Assembly: GCA_017440575.1 (NCBI GenBank)
Contig: JAFSGY010000014.1
Coordinates: 1 to 51,969, forward strand
Length of the DNA stretch: 51,969 nt
Source: Lachnospiraceae bacterium
GTDB taxonomy: Bacteria; Bacillota; Clostridia; Lachnospirales; Lachnospiraceae
Reading direction: 5' to 3'
Position 1 is the first letter of the stretch; each line of letters starts with the position of its first letter. The notes beneath the pieces are model-generated. The model made no database searches, was not told the DNA's origin, and was given only the letters and a program-made list of their open reading frames with translations. The position numbers and the translations under genes were made by a program. Below, piece by piece: positions 67 to 51,780 of the stretch.

Positions 67-142
67 TCTTTTGTCATGTCATTTTTCATTTCCTGCTTAT
101 TATACATCATATCTGACTTTTTGAGAACTTTCCTATAAAGTT

Positions 143-228
143 AAAAAGTGCAAGCTCAGCAGCTTGCACTCAAAGAATTTACTTCGTAAATTCTTTATTA
201 ACTACCACTAAATTACAGCAATTTCCTA
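143..228. repeat. Two-hairpin structured repeat, copy A
   Basis: The element has a 9-bp stem (148-156 / 161-169) with loop CAGC, then an 11-bp stem (172-182 / 186-196), then a 23-nt unpaired core at 206-228. A second copy lies at 34441-34526. The core matches it at 21 of 23 positions, the first loop is CAGC in both, and the stems differ in sequence but still pair. That pattern of preserved pairing suggests a structured RNA or a REP-like element rather than chance. Both copies lie just beyond the terminator of a short minus-strand gene. Function is unknown. Confidence 0.75.
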
Positions 229-287: not shown

Positions 288-473
288 TTAGCTTAACTCG
301 TTAGTTGTTGAACCATTCTGATTTTCCTGCTGATGACCTGTTAAAGGACCATGATTGTTATCATTTCCACATAAGCAATCTCCAAAGATTCCTTCATACA
401 TTGCTGGGAATAATCCGTTTGCTGTTTCATTGATGTTAAGTTCTACAACTTCTGCTGCGTTCCACTTCTTCAT
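288..473 (-). CDS. 61-aa peptide with RiPP/lasso-like leader
   Basis: The small protein starts at an ATG preceded by GGAGGAAG; the longer frame with a TTG start uses that Shine-Dalgarno as codons and is rejected. Its N-terminus has Trp4, Ala7, Leu12, Asn13, Ile14, Thr17 and Gly20. This spacing matches the leader of paeninodin-type lasso peptides (Y/W-x2-P-x4-L-D-V-x2-T). After Thr17 comes NGLFPAMYEG, which places Glu27 at core position 9 (core starting at Asn19) or 8 (core starting at Gly20), where lasso rings close. The rest is hydrophilic, with a CLC motif and a Leu-Ser end, and the roughly 42-residue core is long for a lasso peptide. It has its own promoter and terminator. No lasso cyclase, protease or RRE gene is in the window. 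It could instead be an unmodified peptide. Confidence 0.7.
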   Translation of the reverse strand: MKKWNAAEVVELNINETANGLFPAMYEGIFGDCLCGNDNNHGPLTGHQQENQNGSTTNELS

Positions 474-1787: not shown

Positions 1788-3860
1788 CTATTTCCTTCTC
1801 CTATTCGCTACCAATGCAGCAAACATAGCAAAGATACCACTAAAACCAACGGGTAATGCTCCTGTTGCCACATCTCCGGTTTTGGGCACATCATCCAATG
1901 GAACCGGCTGCTCCGGAATATCAATCAATGGTGTTGGTTCATCCGGGATATCTGTCAATGGTGTTGGTTCCTCTGGAATACTTGTTAACGGTGTTGGCTC
2001 TTCTGGGATATTCGTTACTGAAGCTGATGTCGGTTCTGGATTCGGTTCTGGTGTTGGCTCTGGTTCTGGCGTTGGTTCTGGATCCGGCATTGACTCTGGT
2101 TCTGACGTTGGTTCTGGATCTGGCGTCGCTGCTGCAATACACAGATATCCATCTAAGTGATAATATCCACCCTCATACTTAAAAGTATATCCCTTAAAAT
2201 ATGTGCTTCCTTCCGTTGTCATCCATTCTGGATACTCCTGATTCTCTGCTGTCTTTACAAAACATCTCGCCGGATCAATCTGCTGTGTTTCTACATTAAA
2301 TGCCCAATAAATCTCTGGCATTGTAGCATCTTGCTTTTCACCACTTACAGCCACTCCCAAACCATGGCGTAAGTATTTAATCAAATTACCATTTTCATCC
2401 TTACGGTCATGCATTGAATCTACATAAGCACGAAATACTTCATATGGAACTGTAACACCTTGTGGACCTGCTGTTACTTCGACAAATTCTTTTTTATCCT
2501 GCGACTCAACACTGCTGTCTGTCTCATCAAATCCTTGTCCATTTCCATATCCGATATCTGTATCACTATCTAACGATAACTGCCCATAGACTCTTGTTGT
2601 TATTTCTTCTTTATTTGCCTTAAGCAATGCATTGGCCCAATTAACATAGCTTTGTGTCTCATACTTTTGCTGTTGTATCTCGCTTAAATCATTCTTTGCA
2701 TTCTCTAATGCCTTTACTTTCTTTTCCAATTCTTTCTTAAAAGAAGTCAAGTCCGGCTTTGTTATTAACGCTTCCACTAAAAGCTCCTGCAATTCATTTT
2801 TTGCATCCTGATACTTCTCAGCTGCCTGATTTTCTGCTAATTCTGTTACCTTCTCAACAGTCTCCTTTGCTTCTCCTACTGCAATCTGTGCTACTTCGCT
2901 TGCCTGTTTACTCGCTTCTACTGTCGCTTTCGCATCTTGCACTGCTTCAAACTGTTGTTGTATATTACTCTCCTGCAATTCATCCTGCTTATCCTGAGTC
3001 AGTTCTTGTTTCTCATACTCTGGTATTTCACCATTATATTCCATCAAGTCATAACCATATTCTTTTGCATAAGCATTATACTTCTTTACTTCCTCTATGA
3101 ACTTATTTTCTGCTTTGGTGTATGCTTGTCCTGCCTGCCAAGCTGCATAATATACGTTAGATGCCGCTTGTTTTGCTGCTTTGACATATTGTTCTACTTC
3201 TTCTGAACTGGCATCCTGTTCTAAAGCATACTCTAGTTCTTTTTTTACTTTTTCTGTAATAGTAGTTTGCTTTTCCACATAATCCTGCATGGTTACATTC
3301 TGTACTGTTCCATCTGCATCTTTCTTTGTACCTACAATAAGTTTGTACTCTTCTTCACCATTCTCTGTCTCTACTACAAGCACTGTATCAGAAACCTGCA
3401 CTTCTAGTTCATCTATCTCTTCCTGAATTTGCTCTATCGTGTTATCCTGTTGTCCTATATCTTCTGTACTATTGTTTTGAATGTCTACACTTACCACAAC
3501 ATCATTACCTATATTGCTTTCTACATTATCTATTATTTCCTCACTGAACCCCTGCATTTCAGAATCGATATTGTCCTCACTGATATCTTTTGCTTCTGAA
3601 TCTTCATCGCCTTCCGCAATATCTTCCATTTCAAAGTCTACATCATTCTCTTTTTTTTCTTCTGAGCTTGCACCTGCTTCTACTATTTGCTCTACTTCAT
3701 CCTTTTCCTCGTTTTCATTATCATACTCTATGATAGTCGCAAATTCCTCTGTCTCTTCCTCCTCAGCCAATACCGGCAATGCAACAGATGTAACTACCAT
3801 AAACGCCATTGCTAATGAAATAGCACTTTTTACAATACCCTTTAGTACCTTTCTCTTCAT
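1788..3860 (-). CDS. Sortase-anchored coiled-coil surface protein (VPKTG)
   Basis: This 690-aa secreted protein begins with a signal peptide (MKRKVLKG, hydrophobic core, cleavage near VLAEEE). A very acidic Glu/Asp-rich region follows, then a long Ala/Glu/Lys/Gln-rich segment with heptad character (about residues 170-440) suggesting coiled coils. A folded stretch rich in aromatic residues precedes a Pro/Glu/Thr wall-spanning region. The C-terminus has VPKTG, a hydrophobic segment and RRRK, a cell-wall sorting signal. The sortase B gene at 48638 is a candidate anchor enzyme, but this is not shown. The start at 3860 is preceded by AGGTAGGGG; a longer frame starting at 3935 would overlap the promoter. 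I do not recognise a catalytic domain, so its role (adhesin or spacer) is open. Confidence 0.75.
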   Translation of the reverse strand: MKRKVLKGIVKSAISLAMAFMVVTSVALPVLAEEEETEEFATIIEYDNENEEKDEVEQIVEAGASSEEKKENDVDFEMEDIAEGDEDSEAKDISEDNIDSEMQGFSEEIIDNVESNIGNDVVVSVDIQNNSTEDIGQQDNTIEQIQEEIDELEVQVSDTVLVVETENGEEEYKLIVGTKKDADGTVQNVTMQDYVEKQTTITEKVKKELEYALEQDASSEEVEQYVKAAKQAASNVYYAAWQAGQAYTKAENKFIEEVKKYNAYAKEYGYDLMEYNGEIPEYEKQELTQDKQDELQESNIQQQFEAVQDAKATVEASKQASEVAQIAVGEAKETVEKVTELAENQAAEKYQDAKNELQELLVEALITKPDLTSFKKELEKKVKALENAKNDLSEIQQQKYETQSYVNWANALLKANKEEITTRVYGQLSLDSDTDIGYGNGQGFDETDSSVESQDKKEFVEVTAGPQGVTVPYEVFRAYVDSMHDRKDENGNLIKYLRHGLGVAVSGEKQDATMPEIYWAFNVETQQIDPARCFVKTAENQEYPEWMTTEGSTYFKGYTFKYEGGYYHLDGYLCIAAATPDPEPTSEPESMPDPEPTPEPEPTPEPNPEPTSASVTNIPEEPTPLTSIPEEPTPLTDIPDEPTPLIDIPEQPVPLDDVPKTGDVATGALPVGFSGIFAMFAALVANRRRK
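1890..2012 (-). repeat. Tandem 10-residue repeats ending at the sorting motif
   Basis: Four units of the pattern IP(E/D)(E/Q)P(T/V)PL(T/I/D)(S/D) occur in tandem just before VPKTG. Each spans 30 nt. The sorting motif falls in register as a fifth unit (VPKTG in place of IPEEP). A less regular Pro-Glu repeat precedes them to about 2125. Confidence 0.8.
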
Positions 3861-3905: not shown

Positions 3906-3935
3906 AGTATATATTGAATAATTTATATATTTCAA
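3906..3935 (-). promoter_or_regulatory. Promoter of the surface protein gene
   Basis: On the minus strand TTGAAA (plus 3930-3935) and TATACT (plus 3906-3911) are spaced by 18 nt, 46 nt before the start codon at 3860. Confidence 0.5.
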
Positions 3936-4048: not shown

Positions 4049-4088
4049 CAATTAATAAATCTAACAAAAATGTTAGATTTATTAATTG
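4049..4088. other. Perfect 18-bp inverted repeat
   Basis: Arms 4049-4066 and 4071-4088 are perfectly complementary around an AAAA loop. The hairpin is AT-rich and has no clean poly-T tail on either strand, so it is not a classical terminator. It lies between the surface protein promoter and a 29-aa ORF, and could be a transcript hairpin or an operator. Confidence 0.7.
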
Positions 4089-5376: not shown

Positions 5377-6495
5377 TTATTCACTAACTACATATCTCCT
5401 TCCCAGTAACTCCACTATTTTCTCATATACACGTTCTGAATTATTTTGATCATGATATGCAAAAAACTTATCGATTCTTTCCACATATTCAGACTTTATC
5501 GCACACTTTGCTTCAACATAAGAAATAATCAATTCTCTAAGCTCATCATGTTTCTCCACGACTTCACCGAAACCATCTCGTCTATAATCAAAATATCCTT
5601 TTGTACAATTATGCTTACCTTGCCAAAACACATCTTCGTCAAACTGATAGTATATAACAGGTTTTCTTAATATAGCAAAATCAAATGCTATAGATGAATA
5701 GTCTGTTACCAATAAATCACTTTGTGCAAAAATTTCCGTATAGCTTGTATCCCATACCTCTACTTTTTCATTCATAACAAAAACGTCTTTATATCTTCCC
5801 ATTTCCGGATGCAATTTAAAACATAACTTATATCCATAATTTTCCAATATGTCTATTAATTCCGAGTCATTCAATAACGTATTATATATTTTAAAGTACA
5901 AGCTCTCTTTAAACATATCTATATCCATATCTAGTAAATACTTACGCCATGTTAAAGATATTGTTATTTTCTTACTAGGCTTACTATATAATAGATCATG
6001 TCTCGGTAATCCTGTTAGCCAAACTTTTTTTTCCTGAATAATATATGATTCTCCTTCAAATGATTTTTTCTCATCAGCTGATGATGTAATCATATAAAAA
6101 TTGTTATGGCATACTTCATTTAAAAAACTTGATAAATCTGTTCCCGCTACCCCATGCTGTAAAAAAATCTGATAGGTTTCCTCATGATTTTCCATATGTA
6201 AGGTCTGTGAACTGATATGTGCGTCTACAACACATAACATAAATTTATAAAGAAGCGAGCCATAATCTACTACTTTTCCTATAGAACATATTCTGTCATA
6301 ATCTTTAGAGGCTTTTGAAATAGCAAAATAGGATTTTACCGGTTTATTCTGAATATACTTGAAAAAAGCCTCCCCATTATCACCTGCAAACATTTCTCTG
6401 TCACTTACCAACCATACATTCTTTCCCCAAAAAAGACGTCCTATTTTTCTAATTATCAAAAACAACTGTTTTTTTAACTTTATTTTAACTGTCAT
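5377..6495 (-). CDS. TagF-like CDP-glycerol glycerophosphotransferase
   Basis: This 372-aa protein shows the motifs of the TagB/TagF family: IFLQHG, a GLPRHD element, LTWRKY, TDYSSIAFDF and PVIYYQFD. These enzymes transfer glycerol phosphate or ribitol phosphate from a CDP-polyol to a glycan or to a growing teichoic-acid chain. It is shorter than full TagF polymerases and lacks the large N-terminal region, so adding a single polyol phosphate as decoration is more likely than making a long chain. No tagD/tarI/tarJ-type donor gene is in the operon, so the donor must come from elsewhere. The start follows AGGGAGT. It lies 29 nt after the GH5 gene. Confidence 0.88.
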   Translation of the reverse strand: MTVKIKLKKQLFLIIRKIGRLFWGKNVWLVSDREMFAGDNGEAFFKYIQNKPVKSYFAISKASKDYDRICSIGKVVDYGSLLYKFMLCVVDAHISSQTLHMENHEETYQIFLQHGVAGTDLSSFLNEVCHNNFYMITSSADEKKSFEGESYIIQEKKVWLTGLPRHDLLYSKPSKKITISLTWRKYLLDMDIDMFKESLYFKIYNTLLNDSELIDILENYGYKLCFKLHPEMGRYKDVFVMNEKVEVWDTSYTEIFAQSDLLVTDYSSIAFDFAILRKPVIYYQFDEDVFWQGKHNCTKGYFDYRRDGFGEVVEKHDELRELIISYVEAKCAIKSEYVERIDKFFAYHDQNNSERVYEKIVELLGRRYVVSE

Positions 6496-38665: not shown

Positions 38666-41600
38666 TTAATACAAAATCAGGCAGGATGCGTAGTCATCAA
38701 GTGAAATACATACGGTACCTATTTCACTTACTGTCTGCGCAGCCACGAACTCATAAGCATGAGTCTCTTCTACAAACTGATAAATATATGCTGTTTTTCC
38801 TATTCTTTCAGCGCCAAGTACTACATTCATATTTGCCTGTCTGGAGAAAGTATGTCTTGTCCTGCTAGAAATGAACATGGCATCAAAGCCCTCTCCAAAT
38901 TCTTTTGCTTCTCTCACATAGAGCTTAAGGTCAAGACTTCCATCTACCTCTGCCAGAATCTCATTGGTCAGTGTAATAACCTTTGTTCCCATAAAGATAT
39001 TATAATCAGCACCACTTACTGCCATCTTACGAACAGCCGTCGTTGGAAGTACAAGCTCTGTTACCTCAGAAGCATTGATATTTACAGTTAATCGTTCTGC
39101 TGTTGTACCCAACATATTTGCAAGAGGAACTCTGTTTGCTGTCAGTTCTGCGAGCTCATATGCTGCTGTTACCACATTTTCCCATCCACTTACTTTTTTA
39201 CCATTCACTCCTGTAAAAGTAGGGAATACTCTAGTATCTACAAAAGTTACAGTTGGTGTATTATCATCGTCATTATCATGCTTCTTAGATGATTCACTAT
39301 CATTACCTATAGAAGGATTATTCTCCGGCTTACTTTCTGGCTTTGTATCTGTTACAATTTCTACCTTGGCAGTGTCCAAGCCAGCAGAAACTGCAGTAAT
39401 GGAATCATAATAAATCGTACCGCTTACCATACCACTTTCATCTACTGCATCACTTCCTGCAATGGCATTTACCCATAAACCAAAGGATGTAATGCTGCCC
39501 TTATCCTCTACAAGTCCTCCTGCCGGATTTCCAGGGATATCTCTTGCTACAAACTCTGCAAACGGAATAGTTACTTTAACAGCCTTTGTTCCTGCTGCCG
39601 CATAATCCTCATTTAGGTTCATGTAATATTCATATACATTATTATTTGCAGTAATCTGAATAACCGTCTTCTGTAAATTACCATCCGGAATCGTCCAGAA
39701 GCTTAAAGCATCACAATCAGCCCAGCTTACTTCCTTAGAAATCGTAGCTCCTGCCCATCCGTCACTTGTTTCATTATAGGCAAATTTCATAGCATAATCG
39801 CCTTCATTTACCTGATTCTGTACAACAGAAAGTGTAATCGTACTACCTGTTGCCTTGTTAGTTGCCCAAGACTTGGTAAGCAACGAATCAATGCCAAAAT
39901 AATTCTCGAAGCCATCAATTTCATATGGGTCTTCTGCTGGAACGGGAATGTTAAAGGTTACCTTAATGTTATCAACTGTTTTACCATTCATCTGTAGCGT
40001 AATCGTTCCAACTGTCTCACCCATTTTAGCCAAAGTATCTTCATCTAATACTGCCGTAGCATATCCATTTGCATACTCAGCATCCAATGTACATGCTTCA
40101 TCAACACCCTTGCAAATGAATCTTACACTATCCTCTGTTGAAGTACCACTTACCTTCGCTGTCAGTGTTACAGTCTCTAATACTCTTGTTCCCGCAACTG
40201 GTGCAATCACATATCCATCCTGCTTCATTGCCGCCTCTGCCTGAATAGATACTGACTTCATCTGCTCTAATGCCTGTTTCTGATTTACTGCAAAGATGCT
40301 GTTATCCTGATTGAAGAAGCGGATAAAGTTATCCATCATCTCATGACCATGCTTTACTCCATCTTCATTTACAGACTTTACATATGGTGTATAGAAACCA
40401 TCCTTTTCACCAAAGTTAGCCCATACCAGATAATAAGATGCCTCACTTGACTTAACCACATCTAAAATTTCCTGATGCCAGTCTAATCTTGCATTATCCT
40501 GTTTTTTCAATGCTGTCTGATTATCCCCCTGTTGTACATCATGTCTTACACCAGTTTCTGTTACGGCAACCAGCTTATCATGCGCCTTAGCAAAGCTCTC
40601 AACAACAGATAACTCCTTGGTGAAATTTGTGATAAAAGCATCACTTTGTGTCGGATTGTCATGATACATATCAAAGCCAACCATATCAACGTATCCGTCA
40701 CCCGGATAACGCTCTGCATATTCTTCTACATTTGCTGCCTCTGCTCCCGGTCCATAGACATAGAGTAAGTTATGTACGTCTTTTTCATCACGTAAATACT
40801 CTACCGTATACTTAAATACACTCTTATAGGTCTGTGCATCGCAAAAGGCTGCTCCCCACCAGAACCAGCTGCCGGTATTCTCATGGAATGGTCTGAATAA
40901 AATAGCACCATCTACCTGTTTCGCATAATCAGCCACCATATCAAGATATGCTGTAAACGCTGCGTTGTATGCTCCACCCGGAAGAATCTGATTCATAACA
41001 TCTCCGGTAAGAACACCCGGTGTATATCCACTAAAATTATACCCTGCATAGCTTGGAGCTCCATTTTGAGTATTAACCTTTTCTACCACTGAAAAATTCG
41101 GTGTATGAAGGGAAAGTGTCATAATAGCACCATTTCTGATATTATAGTTGGTCAATGCCGCTGCTGCGATTACATTCTGTTCCATCGTTGTCTGTGCATT
41201 GGCAATCTTTGCTGCCACACTACTGTATGCGCTATCAAGCTCTTTCATTTCATTCAGGTATCGCTCCGCAGAATACTCGTTACCAACAAGTGAAAGGCCA
41301 TCCAGACCTATGATACCAGTATAAGAACCAACCAAATCCATTGTATCGGAGCAGGAAAGATTCGCATTACCTGCTTTATGGCTGGTATTGTTCTGCTGTC
41401 CAAAGATTACGCTATTGGTTTTTCCAACCGCCTGCAAATACGCATATACCTGCTTTACACTGTCAGTTGCCTGTGCATCTACTAACGTAATGTTCTGCGA
41501 AATTGCAGCACTTCCTGCACCTGTAGTAAGGGTTGTTCCCTCTACTGACACTTGCATATCCTGCCCTGTCACTTCTTCCGTTGCATCTACAAAAATATCT

Positions 41601-42988
41601 TTTACCTCTTCCTGCTTTTCAGCGATTAAGGTTACATTGTCCAAATACACAACTCCCTGATAATCCGTTTCACTTCCGATTACACCGATGGTAATACCAT
41701 TTATGATATCTGTTGTATCAAAAGTCAACGAAACTTCTACTTTTTTCAGATTGCCATCATATTCCTGTGCGTTATCAACACTGATACTCGTATTCGTATC
41801 TATTCCGCTGTTGGAAAACAGCTTAGTTTTAAAGCATCCCATTTTCAATTCTGATGAATCATAGATAAAATCAAAGGTCAGCTTATTCGCTCCCTCTGCT
41901 GTGAAATCATCACCCCAGAACGAGGACTTAATCTCACTCCATGTGGAAGCTGCATCCTTGGAATAGTCTACATTCATGGCAAGAGCCTGATACTGCTCAT
42001 TCCATTCAGTACTATTATCTCCCTGATTATCCCATGTGCCATCATAATACCAGCCATCGATTCCCTCAGCGAAATCCCACTGATATATCGCATTCTCTAC
42101 TACCTTACCAGGTTCCTCTGCCTTCTTCTCACCATCCTTTAAAACGACATTTGCATAATAAATATCGCCTTCAAAATTGCAATTCCAGCCTGCCAGCTTC
42201 ACGGTAAATTCAGCAAGATAATCTTCTGTAATCTCATCTCCAAAGGTGAAGGAAACGTTTGCTTTCTTATACAGCTTTCCATCAATTTCAACCATATCTG
42301 TAAGATTCGCTGCCGTAAACTCCGGAATCGATGAATTCTCTCTCCATGTCCAGTTATCACCCAATCTGGCTATACCCTGAACTTTTATTACACCATTATA
42401 CTCTGCCACTTCTTCCGGTATATACATATCAAAAGATACGGTTGCTCCGCTATTTAAAACATTTTCACTTTTCAGTCCCAGATGATTTTCACCCTGATCA
42501 CTCCAAGAGCTGTTACAGTCAAACTTCAGTTCCCTTCCATAGAACTGTGTTAAGGTTACACTCTCTGATGCAAGTCCAAACAGCGCTACTTCTTCCTCTA
42601 CAATCTCGGTTGTTTCCTCTTGTGTTGTTTCTTCTGTCGTTTCCTCTTCGGTGGCTTCCTCTTGCGTAGTTCCTTCTTCTACTGATTCTTCCTCTGTTGC
42701 TTTTTCTGTTGTACTAGCTTCCCTTTCCTCCTCTGAGGATACTTCGGTACTTGATTCTTCAGACTCTTCCTCTGACTGTACTTCCGTTGTCTTTGTTTCA
42801 GTTCCTTCCTCTGACTGTACTTCTGTTGACATTGCTTCGGTTTCATCCTCTGACTGTACCTCGGTACTCATCTCATCTCCCTGTAATGTTTCCGCATACA
42901 CGATATTTCCAGCCATATTACATGGGGAAAGCGCTAAAATCCCAGCCATACTAAGCGAAAACAGCTTTGCAACCCTTCTTCTCTTCAC
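38666..42988 (-). CDS. Secreted multidomain GH26 beta-mannanase
   Basis: This 1440-aa enzyme has a signal peptide (cleavage near VYAET), an acidic Thr/Glu/Ser-rich linker (38-132), two beta-sandwich carbohydrate-binding-like modules (about 140-285 and 300-457, CBM27/CBM23-like in character), and a GH26 domain (about 505-895). The catalytic acid/base is Glu703 in RPFHENTG and the nucleophile Glu811 in TETG, as in beta-1,4-mannanases. An Ig-like module, a further binding module (about 1000-1215), a Ser/Asp-rich linker and a C-terminal domain follow. It should cut mannan or galactomannan outside the cell. No LPXTG-type signal is visible, so anchoring is unclear. The start is GTG behind GGGAGGTA. 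Confidence 0.9.
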   Translation of the reverse strand: MKRRRVAKLFSLSMAGILALSPCNMAGNIVYAETLQGDEMSTEVQSEDETEAMSTEVQSEEGTETKTTEVQSEEESEESSTEVSSEEEREASTTEKATEEESVEEGTTQEEATEEETTEETTQEETTEIVEEEVALFGLASESVTLTQFYGRELKFDCNSSWSDQGENHLGLKSENVLNSGATVSFDMYIPEEVAEYNGVIKVQGIARLGDNWTWRENSSIPEFTAANLTDMVEIDGKLYKKANVSFTFGDEITEDYLAEFTVKLAGWNCNFEGDIYYANVVLKDGEKKAEEPGKVVENAIYQWDFAEGIDGWYYDGTWDNQGDNSTEWNEQYQALAMNVDYSKDAASTWSEIKSSFWGDDFTAEGANKLTFDFIYDSSELKMGCFKTKLFSNSGIDTNTSISVDNAQEYDGNLKKVEVSLTFDTTDIINGITIGVIGSETDYQGVVYLDNVTLIAEKQEEVKDIFVDATEEVTGQDMQVSVEGTTLTTGAGSAAISQNITLVDAQATDSVKQVYAYLQAVGKTNSVIFGQQNNTSHKAGNANLSCSDTMDLVGSYTGIIGLDGLSLVGNEYSAERYLNEMKELDSAYSSVAAKIANAQTTMEQNVIAAAALTNYNIRNGAIMTLSLHTPNFSVVEKVNTQNGAPSYAGYNFSGYTPGVLTGDVMNQILPGGAYNAAFTAYLDMVADYAKQVDGAILFRPFHENTGSWFWWGAAFCDAQTYKSVFKYTVEYLRDEKDVHNLLYVYGPGAEAANVEEYAERYPGDGYVDMVGFDMYHDNPTQSDAFITNFTKELSVVESFAKAHDKLVAVTETGVRHDVQQGDNQTALKKQDNARLDWHQEILDVVKSSEASYYLVWANFGEKDGFYTPYVKSVNEDGVKHGHEMMDNFIRFFNQDNSIFAVNQKQALEQMKSVSIQAEAAMKQDGYVIAPVAGTRVLETVTLTAKVSGTSTEDSVRFICKGVDEACTLDAEYANGYATAVLDEDTLAKMGETVGTITLQMNGKTVDNIKVTFNIPVPAEDPYEIDGFENYFGIDSLLTKSWATNKATGSTITLSVVQNQVNEGDYAMKFAYNETSDGWAGATISKEVSWADCDALSFWTIPDGNLQKTVIQITANNNVYEYYMNLNEDYAAAGTKAVKVTIPFAEFVARDIPGNPAGGLVEDKGSITSFGLWVNAIAGSDAVDESGMVSGTIYYDSITAVSAGLDTAKVEIVTDTKPESKPENNPSIGNDSESSKKHDNDDDNTPTVTFVDTRVFPTFTGVNGKKVSGWENVVTAAYELAELTANRVPLANMLGTTAERLTVNINASEVTELVLPTTAVRKMAVSGADYNIFMGTKVITLTNEILAEVDGSLDLKLYVREAKEFGEGFDAMFISSRTRHTFSRQANMNVVLGAERIGKTAYIYQFVEETHAYEFVAAQTVSEIGTVCISLDDYASCLILY
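42593..42877 (-). repeat. Degenerate STEVQSEE-type repeats in the mannanase linker
   Basis: The linker contains recurring STEVQSE(D/E)-like units followed by Thr/Glu-rich TTEE units. DNA copies differ at third positions, so the array is an old or selected repeat rather than a recent expansion. It probably extends the enzyme away from the wall. Confidence 0.75.
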
Positions 42989-44555: not shown

Positions 44556-46826
44556 TTATTTCAGTTTCCAGATATCTCTGTTATACTCAGCGATAGTTCT
44601 ATCGGATGAGAAGAATCCTGCCTTTGCCATATTGACAAGCATCATCTTCTTCCACTTAGCTTCATCCTTGTAATCTTCAAACATACGATCCTTTGTCTTG
44701 ATGTAATCTTCTAAGTCAAGCAATGTCATGAACCAGTCCTTATTAATTAATTCCTTATGAAGTCTGGTAAGTCTCTCTTCATTACCAACCTTAACAACTT
44801 CCTTGCTGATAATGAAATCAACTGCTTCCTTGATTACATTGCTCTTGTTGTAGAAGTCCTTAGAAACATAATCTGCCTTTACATAGTGCTCGATAACAGT
44901 TTCTGACTTCTCACCGAATACATAGATATTCTCGTCACCAACAAGCTCGTTAATTTCTACGTTAGCACCGTCACTTGTACCAAGTGTTACAGCACCGTTT
45001 AACATGAACTTCATGTTACCTGTACCGGATGCTTCCTTAGATGCTAAAGAGATCTGCTCAGAGATATCGCAAGCCGGGATAAGCTTCTCAGCGTAGCTTA
45101 CATTGTAGTTCTCTACCATAACAACCTTCATGTAATCCTTTACATCTGGGTCATTGTTCACGATTTCCTGTAAGCAAAGGAGTAAGTGAATAATGTCCTG
45201 TGCAATAATATAAGCTGGAGCTGCCTTTGCACCAAAAATGAATGTGATTGGTGTAGATGGCTTCTTGCCTGCCTTAATTTCAAGATACTTGTGAATGATG
45301 TAAAGAGCATTCATCTGCTGACGCTTATACTCATGAAGTCTCTTAATCTGAATATCATAGATGGATTCCGGATTGATTTCCTGTCCTTCCTTCTCCATGA
45401 TGTACTGAGCAAGCGCTACCTTCTTATTTTTCTTGATTGCCTTAATCTTAGTTAAAAATGCTTCATCATTCTTGAATGTCAGAAGCTTCTCTAATTCATC
45501 TGCATCCTTCTTCCAGCCATCGCCTATTGCTTCTGTAATAGCTGTAGCAAGCTCTCTGTTACAAGACATAAGCCATCTTCTGAATGTGATACCGTTTGTC
45601 TTGTTGTTGAACTTCTCTGGATAAATCTTATAAAAATGATTTAACTCTGTATCCTTTAAAATATCTGTATGAATTGCAGCAACACCATTTACAGAGAATC
45701 CGTAATGGATATCAATATGAGCCATATGAACTCGTAAATCCTTATCAATAATCTGAACCTTTGGATCATCATACTTAATAGCTGTTCTCTTATCTAACTC
45801 CCAAATAATAGGCATAAGCTGAGGAACAACCTTCTGTAAGTACTTGATTGGCCACTTCTCAAGTGCTTCTGCAAGGATTGTGTGGTTTGTATATGCACAA
45901 GTCTTGCTTACTACATCAATAGCTTCTTCCATCTCAAAGCCTTCTTCCTCTGTCAGGATTCTGATAAGCTCTGGAATAACCATAGTTGGATGGGTATCAT
46001 TAATCTGGATTACTGCATGCTCATACATCTTGTGAAGGTCATAACCGTTGTCCTTCATTTCTTTTAAGATAAGCTGCGCACCGTTACATACCATGAAATA
46101 CTGCTGATAGATACGAAGCATCTGTCCTGCTGCATCGGAATCATCAGGATACAAAAATAAAGTAAGGTTCTTATCTACATCGTTCTTATCAAAATCAATA
46201 CCATCTTCTACGATGCTCTCATCAATTGTCTCAATATCAAATAAATGAAGCTTGTTTACGCCCTGGTCATAACCAATTACATCAATATCGTATAATCTTG
46301 ACATAACTTTTTTCTTTCCAAAATATACAGGGAAAGAAATATCTGTCTTTGTCAGCCATGACTGATCTTCAATCCAGTCATTCTTTTCTGCTGTCTGCTG
46401 TCTATCCTTGAATACCTGCTTGAAAAGACCAAAGTGATAGTTCAGACCAATACCATCGCCAGGAAGTCCTAAAGTTGCGATAGAGTCTAAGAAACAAGCT
46501 GCAAGTCTTCCAAGACCACCGTTACCAAGAGATGGTTCTGGCTCAACTTCTTCAATCATGCTTAATTCCTTGCCCTCTTCCTTAAGAGCTGCTTCTAACT
46601 CTTCGTAGATTCCAAGGTTGATTAAGTTGTTTGATAATAACTTACCAATTAAGAACTCAGCAGAAATATAATATACCTTCTTGCTTCCCTTAATCTGTCC
46701 CTTACCTTCCATCATTTCCTTGGTCATAGTAAGAATTGCATAATAAAGCTTCTGATTATCAAGCTCCTTAATGCTCTGACCATACATTTTCTGTGCTACT
46801 GCTTCTAAATTTGTTTTTACGCTCAT
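44556..46826 (-). CDS. glgP: Glycogen/maltodextrin phosphorylase
   Basis: This 756-aa enzyme is a GT35 phosphorylase. It has [53 protein letters not shown] and the pyridoxal-phosphate region [15 protein letters not shown], followed by [10 protein letters not shown]. It releases glucose 1-phosphate from glycogen or long maltodextrins. It is slightly shorter than the 790-840-residue E. coli enzymes but has all core motifs. It has its own promoter with an embedded operator (46878-46913), suggesting control by one of the LacI proteins. The lacI gene upstream is in the same orientation but has separate control. Confidence 0.93.
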
Positions 46827-49531: not shown

Positions 49532-51628
49532 TTAAAACTTCTCTACCCGTGCTATAATAACAGACCTTGGGCAAAGCGTCAACCAATCGATACCAGTCCA
49601 TCTGGTCAATGCCTGATAATCCGTTTCCGGTGTATGCTCGAATTCCGTATTCATAATCACACGCCATTTTCTTCCAAGCGGAAGGTTAGGAAGCTGTATA
49701 TTCACATCTTCCCAGAAAGCGTTAACACCAATATAGATAATATCATCCTCGGTATTTTCCGCATTTCTTCCTGCAAACATAATACCAATCGTTCTGGTAT
49801 CTGCGCTACAGCTACTATTCCATGCTGTCTTATTGTGAATACTTACCTCTGGGAATCCACATCCACTTGGACCCGAACGCCCACGTAAAATCGGATGCTG
49901 TCTTCTCAAATGAATCATAAATTTGCAGAACTCAAACATCTCAGGATATTTATCTTTTCTCGTCCAGTCTATCCATGAGATAATATTGTCCTGACAATAT
50001 GCATTGTTATTACCAAACTGTGTGTTACAGAACTCATCACCTGCAAGGAACATGGCAGACCCACGGCTACACATCAGCACAGCAAAGGCATTTTTCCGCA
50101 TACGGTTACGAAGCTTGAGAATCTCTGTATCTGTTACTTCGCCCTCATCACCACAGTTCCAGCTATTGTTATTGCTATCTCCATCTGTATTGTTCCAGCC
50201 ATTTTTCTCATTATGCTTGTAATTATAAGCATACATATCATATAGAGTAAATCCGTCATGACAATTAATGAAATTAACGGATGCATTCTCACCACGATTT
50301 TCAGGATTATACAAATCATAAGAACCTGTAATTCGATTAATTGCTGCCTGTGCCATTCCATAATCTCCTTTTAAGAAGCAGCGCATATCATCACGGTATC
50401 TTCCATTCCATTCTGCCCAGCGGTTCCATGATGGGAAGCTGCCTACCTGATAAAGTCCTCCCGCATCCCATGCCTCAGCAATCAGCTTCACCTTACCTAA
50501 TATCGGATCAAATGCCAGACTCTGTAGTAATGGCGGCTTACTCATTGGCGAACCGTCCTCGTTTCGTCCCATAATCGATGCAAGATCAAAACGAAAACCA
50601 TCCACTCGATACGAAATAACCCAATAACGCAGACAATCCAGAATGAACTGTTCTACAATCGGGTGATTACAATTCATAACATTACCACATCCACTGAAAT
50701 TATAATACTTTCCATCAGGAGTCAGCATATAATAAATGTTATTGTCAATTCCCTTAAAGGAGAAGCATGGTCCGAGCTCATTTCCTTCTGCTGTATGATT
50801 GAATACTACATCAAGAATGACCTCTATCTTATTTTTATGCAGCTCATTGATAAGCTCTCTTAATTCATTTCCTTCTCTATTATATTCCAAGGCTGATGTA
50901 TAGCTGGTATTTGGTGCAAAAAAGCATACGGTACTGTAGCCCCAGTAATTAAACAGCTCTTTTCCATCTACCACTCTGACATCTTCCATCTCATCAAATT
51001 CAAAAATCGGCATAAGCTCAACTGCATTTACACCAAGCTCTACCAGATATGGTATCTTTTCCTTGATTCCGGCAAAGGTTCCACGATGTGTCACATCGGA
51101 GGACTTATCCATAGTAAAGCCACGAACATGCATTTCATAGATAATCATGTCCTTTACCTGACGATTCGTCTGCTTTCCATTTCCCCAGTCATATCCATCA
51201 TCCACTACTCTTGCCTTATAAAATGGATCTTTTCCACTTTTTCTGCCCCATTCACTCTGACCTACAACTGCCTTTGCATAAGGGTCAAGAATATAATTAT
51301 TCTTATCAAATAACAATCCTTTCTTTGGATTGTACTCACCATCAAACTGATACGCATATTCGAATTCTGTCGGTACCAGACCATACACTATCATCGAATA
51401 GGTATTGCCAATTCGGTAGGACTCTGGAAACGGAATCACTGCATAAGGCTGCTTCTCTGTTCTGTGAAAAAGACACAGTGTACAAGAGGTTGCACCATAA
51501 GAATGTATGGTAAAGTTTATACCGCCATCCACAACACTTGCACCATTCGATAAATATAGTCCCGGTCTTACTGAAAAGCCATTTATCATATCCGTAGGCG
51601 CATAATACTTTGTCTTATCATAATTCAT
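49532..51628 (-). CDS. glgX: Glycogen debranching enzyme, GlgX/isoamylase type
   Basis: This 698-aa GH13 enzyme has an N-terminal CBM48-like beta domain (about 18-140), then the catalytic core: VFNHTAEG, the nucleophile Asp348 in GFRFDLAS, the acid/base Glu385 in IAEAWDAGG and the INCHDGF site. Such enzymes hydrolyse alpha-1,6 branches of glycogen or limit dextrin. It complements the phosphorylase encoded at 44556 and MalQ at 27110. The start is the ATG at 51628 after GGGAG; two upstream ATGs have no well-spaced Shine-Dalgarno. Pullulanase-type activity cannot be excluded. Confidence 0.9.
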   Translation of the reverse strand: MNYDKTKYYAPTDMINGFSVRPGLYLSNGASVVDGGINFTIHSYGATSCTLCLFHRTEKQPYAVIPFPESYRIGNTYSMIVYGLVPTEFEYAYQFDGEYNPKKGLLFDKNNYILDPYAKAVVGQSEWGRKSGKDPFYKARVVDDGYDWGNGKQTNRQVKDMIIYEMHVRGFTMDKSSDVTHRGTFAGIKEKIPYLVELGVNAVELMPIFEFDEMEDVRVVDGKELFNYWGYSTVCFFAPNTSYTSALEYNREGNELRELINELHKNKIEVILDVVFNHTAEGNELGPCFSFKGIDNNIYYMLTPDGKYYNFSGCGNVMNCNHPIVEQFILDCLRYWVISYRVDGFRFDLASIMGRNEDGSPMSKPPLLQSLAFDPILGKVKLIAEAWDAGGLYQVGSFPSWNRWAEWNGRYRDDMRCFLKGDYGMAQAAINRITGSYDLYNPENRGENASVNFINCHDGFTLYDMYAYNYKHNEKNGWNNTDGDSNNNSWNCGDEGEVTDTEILKLRNRMRKNAFAVLMCSRGSAMFLAGDEFCNTQFGNNNAYCQDNIISWIDWTRKDKYPEMFEFCKFMIHLRRQHPILRGRSGPSGCGFPEVSIHNKTAWNSSCSADTRTIGIMFAGRNAENTEDDIIYIGVNAFWEDVNIQLPNLPLGRKWRVIMNTEFEHTPETDYQALTRWTGIDWLTLCPRSVIIARVEKF

Positions 51629-51780
51629 AATAATCCACTCCCTTTTCATTCCCTTTTTGTCATTTCCCCCACCTGACCAAAAGGTACACTTATTATTAAT
51701 TTTACGATAAAATCGTTTTCCCAGCAAGATTATATCCATTTTGTGCTATTTTTAAGCATGATAGTGTTATCAGATTTATT

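Follow-up and report, generated by a model that had tools for sequence, protein, structure and literature searches.

In paeninodins, the closest described systems to the locus analysed here, the leader motif has an almost invariant Trp, capsule loci are often found close to the clusters, and PbaB1 (PDB entry 9x90) is a paeninodin-like RRE (excerpts of PMC13381572). An H/K/D/D-type motif is reported for kinases whose target is the C-terminal Ser of paeninodin-type precursors (excerpt of PMC9266682). Lasso precursors from the rumen have leaders of the form MKxWxxPxxxELxIxETAx, Gly1, Thr at −3 and, in most cases, a Ser near the C-terminus; they co-occur with HPr kinases, nucleotidyltransferases and sensor kinases, and the excerpted parts of PMC7533575 name their ring acid as Asp at positions 8–9, although the core of KH1P17, as we read Table 3 of that source, has Glu at 8 followed by Asp at 9. 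Linear polyphosphorylated peptides (LPPs) have an RRE, an HprK-like kinase and an MsbA-like exporter as well, but differ by YxxP leaders, a SipW-like peptidase and clusters described without a cyclase (excerpts of PMC13381572).

Like paeninodin, pseudomycoidin and PbaA/PbaB1 (Paenibacillus alginolyticus), the present locus combines a Trp leader with a discrete PqqD-type RRE and a separate B2 protein. It further shares with paeninodins an Asn-synthase-like cyclase, an HprK-like kinase, a C-terminal Ser, an MsbA-like exporter and a nearby glycosyltransferase gene, and it resembles the rumen precursors in the features listed above except for the acid. It differs from paeninodins by Glu at predicted ring position 8 where those have Asp at 9, by a separate cyclase clade beside the canonical one in one cluster, by a CxC motif and two His kept in the tail of three orthologues and, in the peptide itself, by Ala for the Pro of WxxP. 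In our judgement the gene very probably encodes the precursor (A) of a class II lasso-type peptide related to paeninodins, made by the full route proposed below from a joined C43–IS–C26 neighbourhood. It is best read as a Glu8 subtype of these peptides whose cyclases form a clade apart from the Asp-type cyclase that the cluster also holds.

The peptide gene and its surroundings

The window, 51,969 nucleotides long, is the entire contig C43 of a Lachnospiraceae MAG (2.83 Mb, 122 contigs, 78% complete). On its minus strand, an ORF starts with the ATG at 473 and runs down to 288 (61 aa plus stop), with the translation MKKWNAAEVVELNINETANGLFPAMYEGIFGDCLCGNDNNHGPLTGHQQENQNGSTTNELS and a ribosome-binding site (GGAGG) 8 nt 5′ of the ATG (Table 1). 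The leader contains W4, A7, L12, I14 and T17, and the predicted core holds G1, E8, C14, C16 and a C-terminal Ser. All residues that the first-pass annotation had listed (Trp4, Ala7, Leu12, Asn13, Ile14, Thr17 and Glu27) are in place in the ORF translation, as is the CLC motif (Cys33-Leu-Cys35), and the paeninodin-type lasso leader that it proposed is supported by Thr17 at −3 from Gly20, with Trp4 present as well. The Pro of WxxP, which is Ala7 here, is present in the orthologues of genomes G096 and G150; some published precursors from the rumen, for example INlla14, have Ala there too (Table 3 of PMC7533575).

Table 1. Features of the peptide locus (window, contig C43) and of the lasso cluster on contig C26 of the same genome.
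Feature	Contig	Position	Strand	Remarks
IS91-like element end R1	C43	1–141	.	Contig breaks here; same sequence starts contig C63
Dispersed hairpin-bearing repeat copy	C43	143–242	.	Between peptide terminator and IS
Hairpin, 14 bp, then T run	C43	238–272	−	Directly 3′ of peptide gene; −15.3 kcal/mol
Precursor peptide gene	C43	288–473	−	61 aa; leader M1–N19, predicted core G20–S61; from ORF reading and homologues
Predicted core, 42 aa	C43	291–416	−	First 28 residues (G20–H47) near-invariant
Glu27 codon, proposed ring acid (Gly1–Glu8 isopeptide)	C43	393–395	−	E27 kept; position computed from ORF
Promoter-like TTGCCT – 17 nt – TATGCT	C43	519–547	−	TG before −10; weak by consensus; read by eye
Palindrome ATTCTATCA-N4-TGTTAGATT	C43	550–571	.	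18-bp core 552–569; 78 bp from ATG, 2 bp upstream of −35
MSGI cyclase	C26	157–2067	+	First gene of contig; no precursor beside it
PqqD/RRE	C26	2117–2398	−	PF05402 over cut-off
MSAI cyclase	C26	2587–4503		
HprK-like kinase 1	C26	4546–5490		
Precursor 1 (Asp9 type)	C26	5580–5762		
B2	C26	5898–6347		NF033537, 75.2 bits (cut-off 33)
ABC exporter, MsbA-like	C26	6372–8048		
HprK-like kinase 2	C26	8052–8948		
Histidine kinase and response regulator	C26	8957–10522	−	Named by reading the sequence

The gene had also been credited with its own promoter and terminator: a promoter-like element and a hairpin flank it, and neither came up in motif scans. The 9-of-12 promoter scan did not list the site at 547–519, and the terminator scan of the window returned, instead of the hairpin at 238–272, another one at 171–146, which we dropped as terminator of the peptide gene as it is part of a dispersed repeat. 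A layout like that of the promoter-like element also precedes the peptides of G150 and G361, and a similar hairpin stands at the equivalent place 3′ of the G096 peptide; we propose the hairpin as a putative terminator or attenuator. The dispersed repeat has 15 further partial matches in the genome (74–96% identical) and contains the hairpins AAAGAATTTACGAAGTAAATTCTTT and GTGCAAGC..GCTTGCAC.

On its 5′ side the peptide gene is neighboured by a Fic gene, a surface-protein-like gene and a glycosyltransferase gene, into which the window continues, unlike in G096 and G150, where kinase and ABC genes precede the peptide. Farther along, the window encodes a 1,440-aa protein with GH26, CBM27 and CBM11 matches (38666–42988), near which lie a glycogen-phosphorylase-like gene (44556–46826) and an alpha-amylase-family gene (49532–51739).

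Core residues and the assigned cyclases

Homologues were collected from 150 family genomes and from species-genome contigs. The closest orthologues are those of G096 (80% identity over 50 residues) and G150 (77% over 53), all others being more distant, and the peptide profile matched in 10 of 334 genera at E ≤ 0.01. Residues G20–H47 are identical in the window, G096 and G150 except for position 39, with the genomes spanning at least two genera, while the tail beyond H47 is variable apart from the last Ser. Core codons of the three genomes gave a pN of 0.02–0.05 against a pS of 0.41–0.82, and the leader a pN of 0.15–0.30; these codon comparisons indicate strong purifying selection on the core in all three.

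Ten precursors could be assigned to MSGI cyclases, that is, adjoin such a cyclase. Gly20, Glu27, Asn/Asp19 and the final Ser are present in all ten while the remaining core varies, a count to be read with the fact that alignment A1 (eight rows), which underlies the precursor profile that found loci L107 and L108, already had E27 and thus biased the profile towards it. The seven other precursors of the same loci, which are assigned to an MSAI cyclase or a fused kinase, have no Glu27 (0/7). Among 19 non-MSGI precursors (two Gly-rich ones not counted), 13 carry an Asp as core residue 8 or 9 behind a Gly and six misfit; some precursors that are not beside MSGI also end in Ser. With Gly20 as residue 1, a ring of eight (Glu8) would form here and one of nine (Asp9) in the sister type.

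These comparisons bear on three statements of the first-pass annotation. Its choice of Glu27 as ring acid is strengthened, with position 8 the likely one if Gly20 is residue 1. Loss of Glu27 in homologues, which it had named as a point against the proposal, is seen in the same-leader homologues at other cyclases and in none of the ten beside MSGI. As for the long hydrophilic tail and CLC, which were called unlike known lasso peptides, a long tail is usual in this group (predicted cores of 24–53 aa among the ten), and CLC is confined, among the ten, to the peptide of the window and its two closest orthologues.

Several of the loci hold further precursors. A fused protein of about 690 aa, composed of an HprK-like kinase and an NTP_transf_5 nucleotidyltransferase, is encoded at L066 (5421–7493) and L069 (8097–10142; domains scanned in the G096 copy), and beside it lies a third kind of precursor (L066 7556–7792, L069 7812–8045) with a lasso-type leader, a Gly-rich middle, a CRC-GGTSPC-HH tail and a final Ser; neither was seen on C26:1–20000. 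L009 has one MSGI cyclase and three Glu8-type precursors of different cores (3396–3834, 6226–6357), two in front of the cyclase and one behind it on the opposite strand.

In all seven loci outside our genome that hold a complete MSGI cyclase (L066, L069, L067, L107, L108, L009 and L072, all of them reached through the peptide), a Glu27-type precursor lies ~90–220 bp 5′ of it on the same strand; the order peptide-then-MSGI holds in G096, G150, G115, G361, G288, G152 and L009, and in G096 and G150 it is the orthologue of the window peptide that directly precedes the cyclase. Starting from the cyclase, a search of 397 family genomes found MSGI in six, namely our own, four among the seven loci and G045, where the gene is cut by its contig start. 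Precursor matches at E ≤ 2.6e-12 were obtained in five of the 397 sampled genomes, and a complete MSGI cyclase occurs in exactly these five; the next match is at 1.1e-7; the five genomes with weaker matches only are all without a complete MSGI cyclase (Fisher p 7e-11, with an E cut chosen after the list had been seen). A class-wide search for MSGI at E ≤ 1e-100 gave one genome in 391, our own.

In a tree of the cyclases, the MSGI proteins form a clade of eight rows (support 100/100) and the MSAI proteins one of 11 rows (100/98), with ~3.5 changes per column between the clade stems and 4.9 from MSGI to AsnB, distances that carry a long-branch warning. All eight MSGI proteins have Ser at the aligned Cys2 place, so that the glutaminase Cys2 is absent, and keep SGGLDS. 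The lasso cyclase model NF033535 is the best NCBIfam model for each of them at 155–196 bits, under its cut-off of 525; four MSAI proteins, at 181–241 bits, fall under that cut-off as well. A PDB search with the cyclase alignment returned six sequences (four asparagine synthetases, a hydroxyamidotransferase and beta-lactam synthetase) and no lasso cyclase. A comparison with plasmids gave 62 records, but among the matches listed identity was 24–29% over parts of the protein, which is uninformative, and we dropped them as a means of naming the MSGI cyclase.

It is unlikely that the RRE, the protease and the MSGI cyclase process the peptide into a different product, either an unthreaded macrolactam or a nine-residue ring between Asn19 and Glu27. 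Such a product would fit the deep clade of MSGI and its scores far under the lasso-cyclase cut-off, and Asn19 may serve as an alternative residue 1: Asn/Asp19 is kept in ten of ten precursors, and if the core began at this residue, Thr17 would stand at −2, where Thr is called conserved (excerpt of PMC10368454). However, all eight proteins still match NF033535 better than any other family, which speaks against a non-lasso product, and the Asn start is opposed both by the rumen precursors, which place Thr at −3 and Gly at +1 (PMC7533575, in part), and by three precursors of L111 with the same TANG junction, whose Asp at G+8 means that an Asn start would need ten-residue rings. A bolder proposal, which we rate as quite unlikely, is that MSGI represents a separate lineage of RiPP macrolactam synthetases rather than a branch within the known lasso cyclases, and that the almost invariant core GLFPAMYE-GIFGDCLCGNDxNHGPLTGH, with its CxC and two His, becomes a phosphorylated macrolactam that binds metal or forms an unusual CxC disulfide in its tail, co-regulated with the Asp9 lasso peptide and using common leader-recognition and export proteins. 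Neither GIFGDCLCG nor GLFPAMYE was found in the literature searched.

A probable contig break between peptide and cyclase

We return to the reading as a Glu8 lasso-type peptide and to the whereabouts of its enzymes. The first-pass annotation saw no cyclase or protease in the window, which is correct, and called the peptide an orphan. A lack of RiPP enzymes in every genome with the peptide, which it had named as another point against its proposal, does not hold: the same genome carries PqqD, B2 and Asn-synthase-like proteins on contig C26 (locus L065; domains by family scans; Table 1). Its RRE scored 66.6 bits with NF033536 (cut-off 80) and has 9x90 (PbaB1) as best PDB match (E 1.1e-8). The H, K, D and D columns are kept in 15 of 15 aligned kinases, both kinases of C26 included, which lie under the gathering score of Pfam Hpr_kinase_C. 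An enzyme search of seven genomes (our own, G096, G115, G066, G150, G151 and G152) found Asn_synthase in all seven, PqqD over cut-off in six (no match in G151) and B2 (PF13471) over cut-off in four (our own, G096, G115 and G066); B2 was absent or under cut-off in the MAGs G150, G151 (the genome of L009) and G152.

No cyclase is seen near the peptide probably because the contig ends 287 bp past it, breaking at an IS91-like element. Its end sequence R1 has a counterpart in the first 141 bp of C26 (R2), which recurs at the ends of C24 and C41. In G046, matches to both end sequences (78% identity across 140 bp, 84% across 88 bp) bound a 1.4-kb element present in two copies, one of which was scanned and encodes a transposase of the IS91 family (NF033538, 310 bits); G145 has a broken copy with both end sequences matched. 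The ends of C43 and C26 are oriented as synteny predicts. A direct overlap of C43:1–600 with C26:1–3000 gave no common 14-mer, as expected if an element separates the two. Both contig ends would thus be accounted for by one break, at a single element lying between a peptide and a cyclase that are adjacent in seven of seven relatives, and the orphan status of the peptide is most likely an assembly effect. The physical join C43–IS–C26 is one that we infer, its pairing resting on synteny, since R1 also leads to C63 and R2 to C24 and C41. Genome G199 of the same genus had no match to the peptide profile or the MSGI cyclase at the limits used and is therefore unusable for testing the join. As the contig break would explain the missing cyclase, the two possibilities raised at first, a substrate modified in trans and a novel family of small secreted peptides, are unneeded.

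At the junctions with R1, a T run of at least five lies beside the element end in seven of seven cases (C43, C63, L126, L127, L128, L129 and L130; window 141–147). In C43 and C63 (L075) it forms the end of a hairpin, so that the IS may target terminators, or else the T run may be part of the element itself.

We regard it as improbable that the peptide gene is a true orphan standing apart from the cluster, whether the C26 enzymes modify its product in trans or the peptide stays unmodified. In its favour, the Fic, surface-protein-like and glycosyltransferase genes on the 5′ side differ from the kinase and ABC genes of G096 and G150, the IS ends also join C63, C24 and C41, and lone precursors do exist: contig C29 of G096 encodes a same-leader peptide (L112 10033–10227, MKKWNTPDIAELNINETA) with a final Ser and with no lasso gene seen within ~10 kb on either side (20 kb read). 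Against it, the lone peptide and the precursor-less cyclase both sit at contig ends that match the two ends of one type of IS, in the orientation expected from synteny. The L112 peptide, which has no good palindrome (score 9/14), is a better candidate for a true orphan than that of the window.

An LPP or an unmodified small secreted peptide is very improbable, even though LPP clusters have an RRE, an HprK-like kinase and an MsbA-like exporter as in paeninodins and the tail is long and hydrophilic, since the leader carries Trp where LPP leaders have YxxP (both from excerpts of PMC13381572) and a cyclase gene follows the peptide in seven of seven relatives. A chance ORF, for which the shortness of the peptide and the lack of any Pfam or NCBIfam family at E up to 10 could be cited, is next to inconceivable given matches in ten of 334 genera, a core pN far below pS, the ribosome-binding site, the hairpin and the palindrome. 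A search against plasmids gave zero matches to the peptide.

An upstream palindrome and the proposed route

For the lasso-type precursor preferred here, the upstream region offers a further link to the C26 cluster. We compared 31 precursors, identified by a leader regular expression at 17 loci, with 213 control ORFs of at least 150 aa from the same loci. The motif TCTAWCA-N4-TGWTAGA (at least 12 of 14 positions) is present 63–103 bp before the ATG in 19 of the 31 precursors and in four of the 213 controls, a difference whose Fisher p of 1e-16 is overstated by the relatedness of the loci; 12 precursors are without a good palindrome, and two of the four control matches (L070 1562 and L009 3202) fall in a divergent promoter region that also serves a precursor. 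Our genome has four exact copies: one upstream of the window peptide, one upstream of precursor 1 on C26, one within an ORF (C21:13945) and one between the surface-protein-like and glycosyltransferase genes (window 4060). Whole-genome counts with at most one mismatch, given for the motif and its reversed pattern, were 6/6 in G000, 3/4 in G096 and 4/1 in G150. As the counts in G000 and G096 do not exceed the reversed control, the motif alone defines no regulon, and we dropped a genome-wide regulon on account of these counts and of the copy inside an ORF. We propose the palindrome at 550–571 as a candidate activator site, and the two-component system beside the C26 cluster would be its natural binder. 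The literature searched contained nothing on lasso peptides that joins two-component systems, Lachnospiraceae and an operator.

A long perfect palindrome surrounds TCTAACA-N4-TGTTAGA at window 4049–4088, between the surface-protein-like gene (start at 3935 or later) and the glycosyltransferase gene; it may be a terminator or a further regulator site.

From the sequences, gene content, synteny of relatives, common IS ends, conservation and common palindrome described above, a route can be predicted down to each enzyme step, the threading and the regulator. The promoter with its upstream palindrome, probably bound by the neighbouring two-component regulator, would drive expression of the peptide, whose leader (W4…T17) would dock in the PqqD/RRE protein. 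An HprK-like kinase would phosphorylate the C-terminal Ser, B2 would cut before Gly20, the MSGI-type cyclase would join Gly1 to the side chain of Glu8, and the MsbA-like ABC protein would export the product. Peptide and MSGI cyclase would be neighbours separated by an IS91-like element of ~1.4 kb, at which the assembly broke, and a single RRE, B2 and exporter would serve two precursor/cyclase pairs, the Asp9 pair on C26 and the Glu8 pair.

The case illustrates how the break of an assembly at an insertion element can leave a RiPP precursor looking like an "orphan", and the palindrome would be a cis-regulatory feature that ties lasso precursors together across contigs. The mining rule Gx7D, quoted in an excerpt of PMC13289728, could miss the Glu8 type. 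A Glu8 subtype that has a cyclase clade to itself and occurs in clusters which make an Asp-type peptide too is a testable proposal. Such clusters may be a natural setting in which to ask how a single RRE and a single protease work with two cyclases, a question akin to the leader discrimination treated in PMC13381572 (as excerpted).
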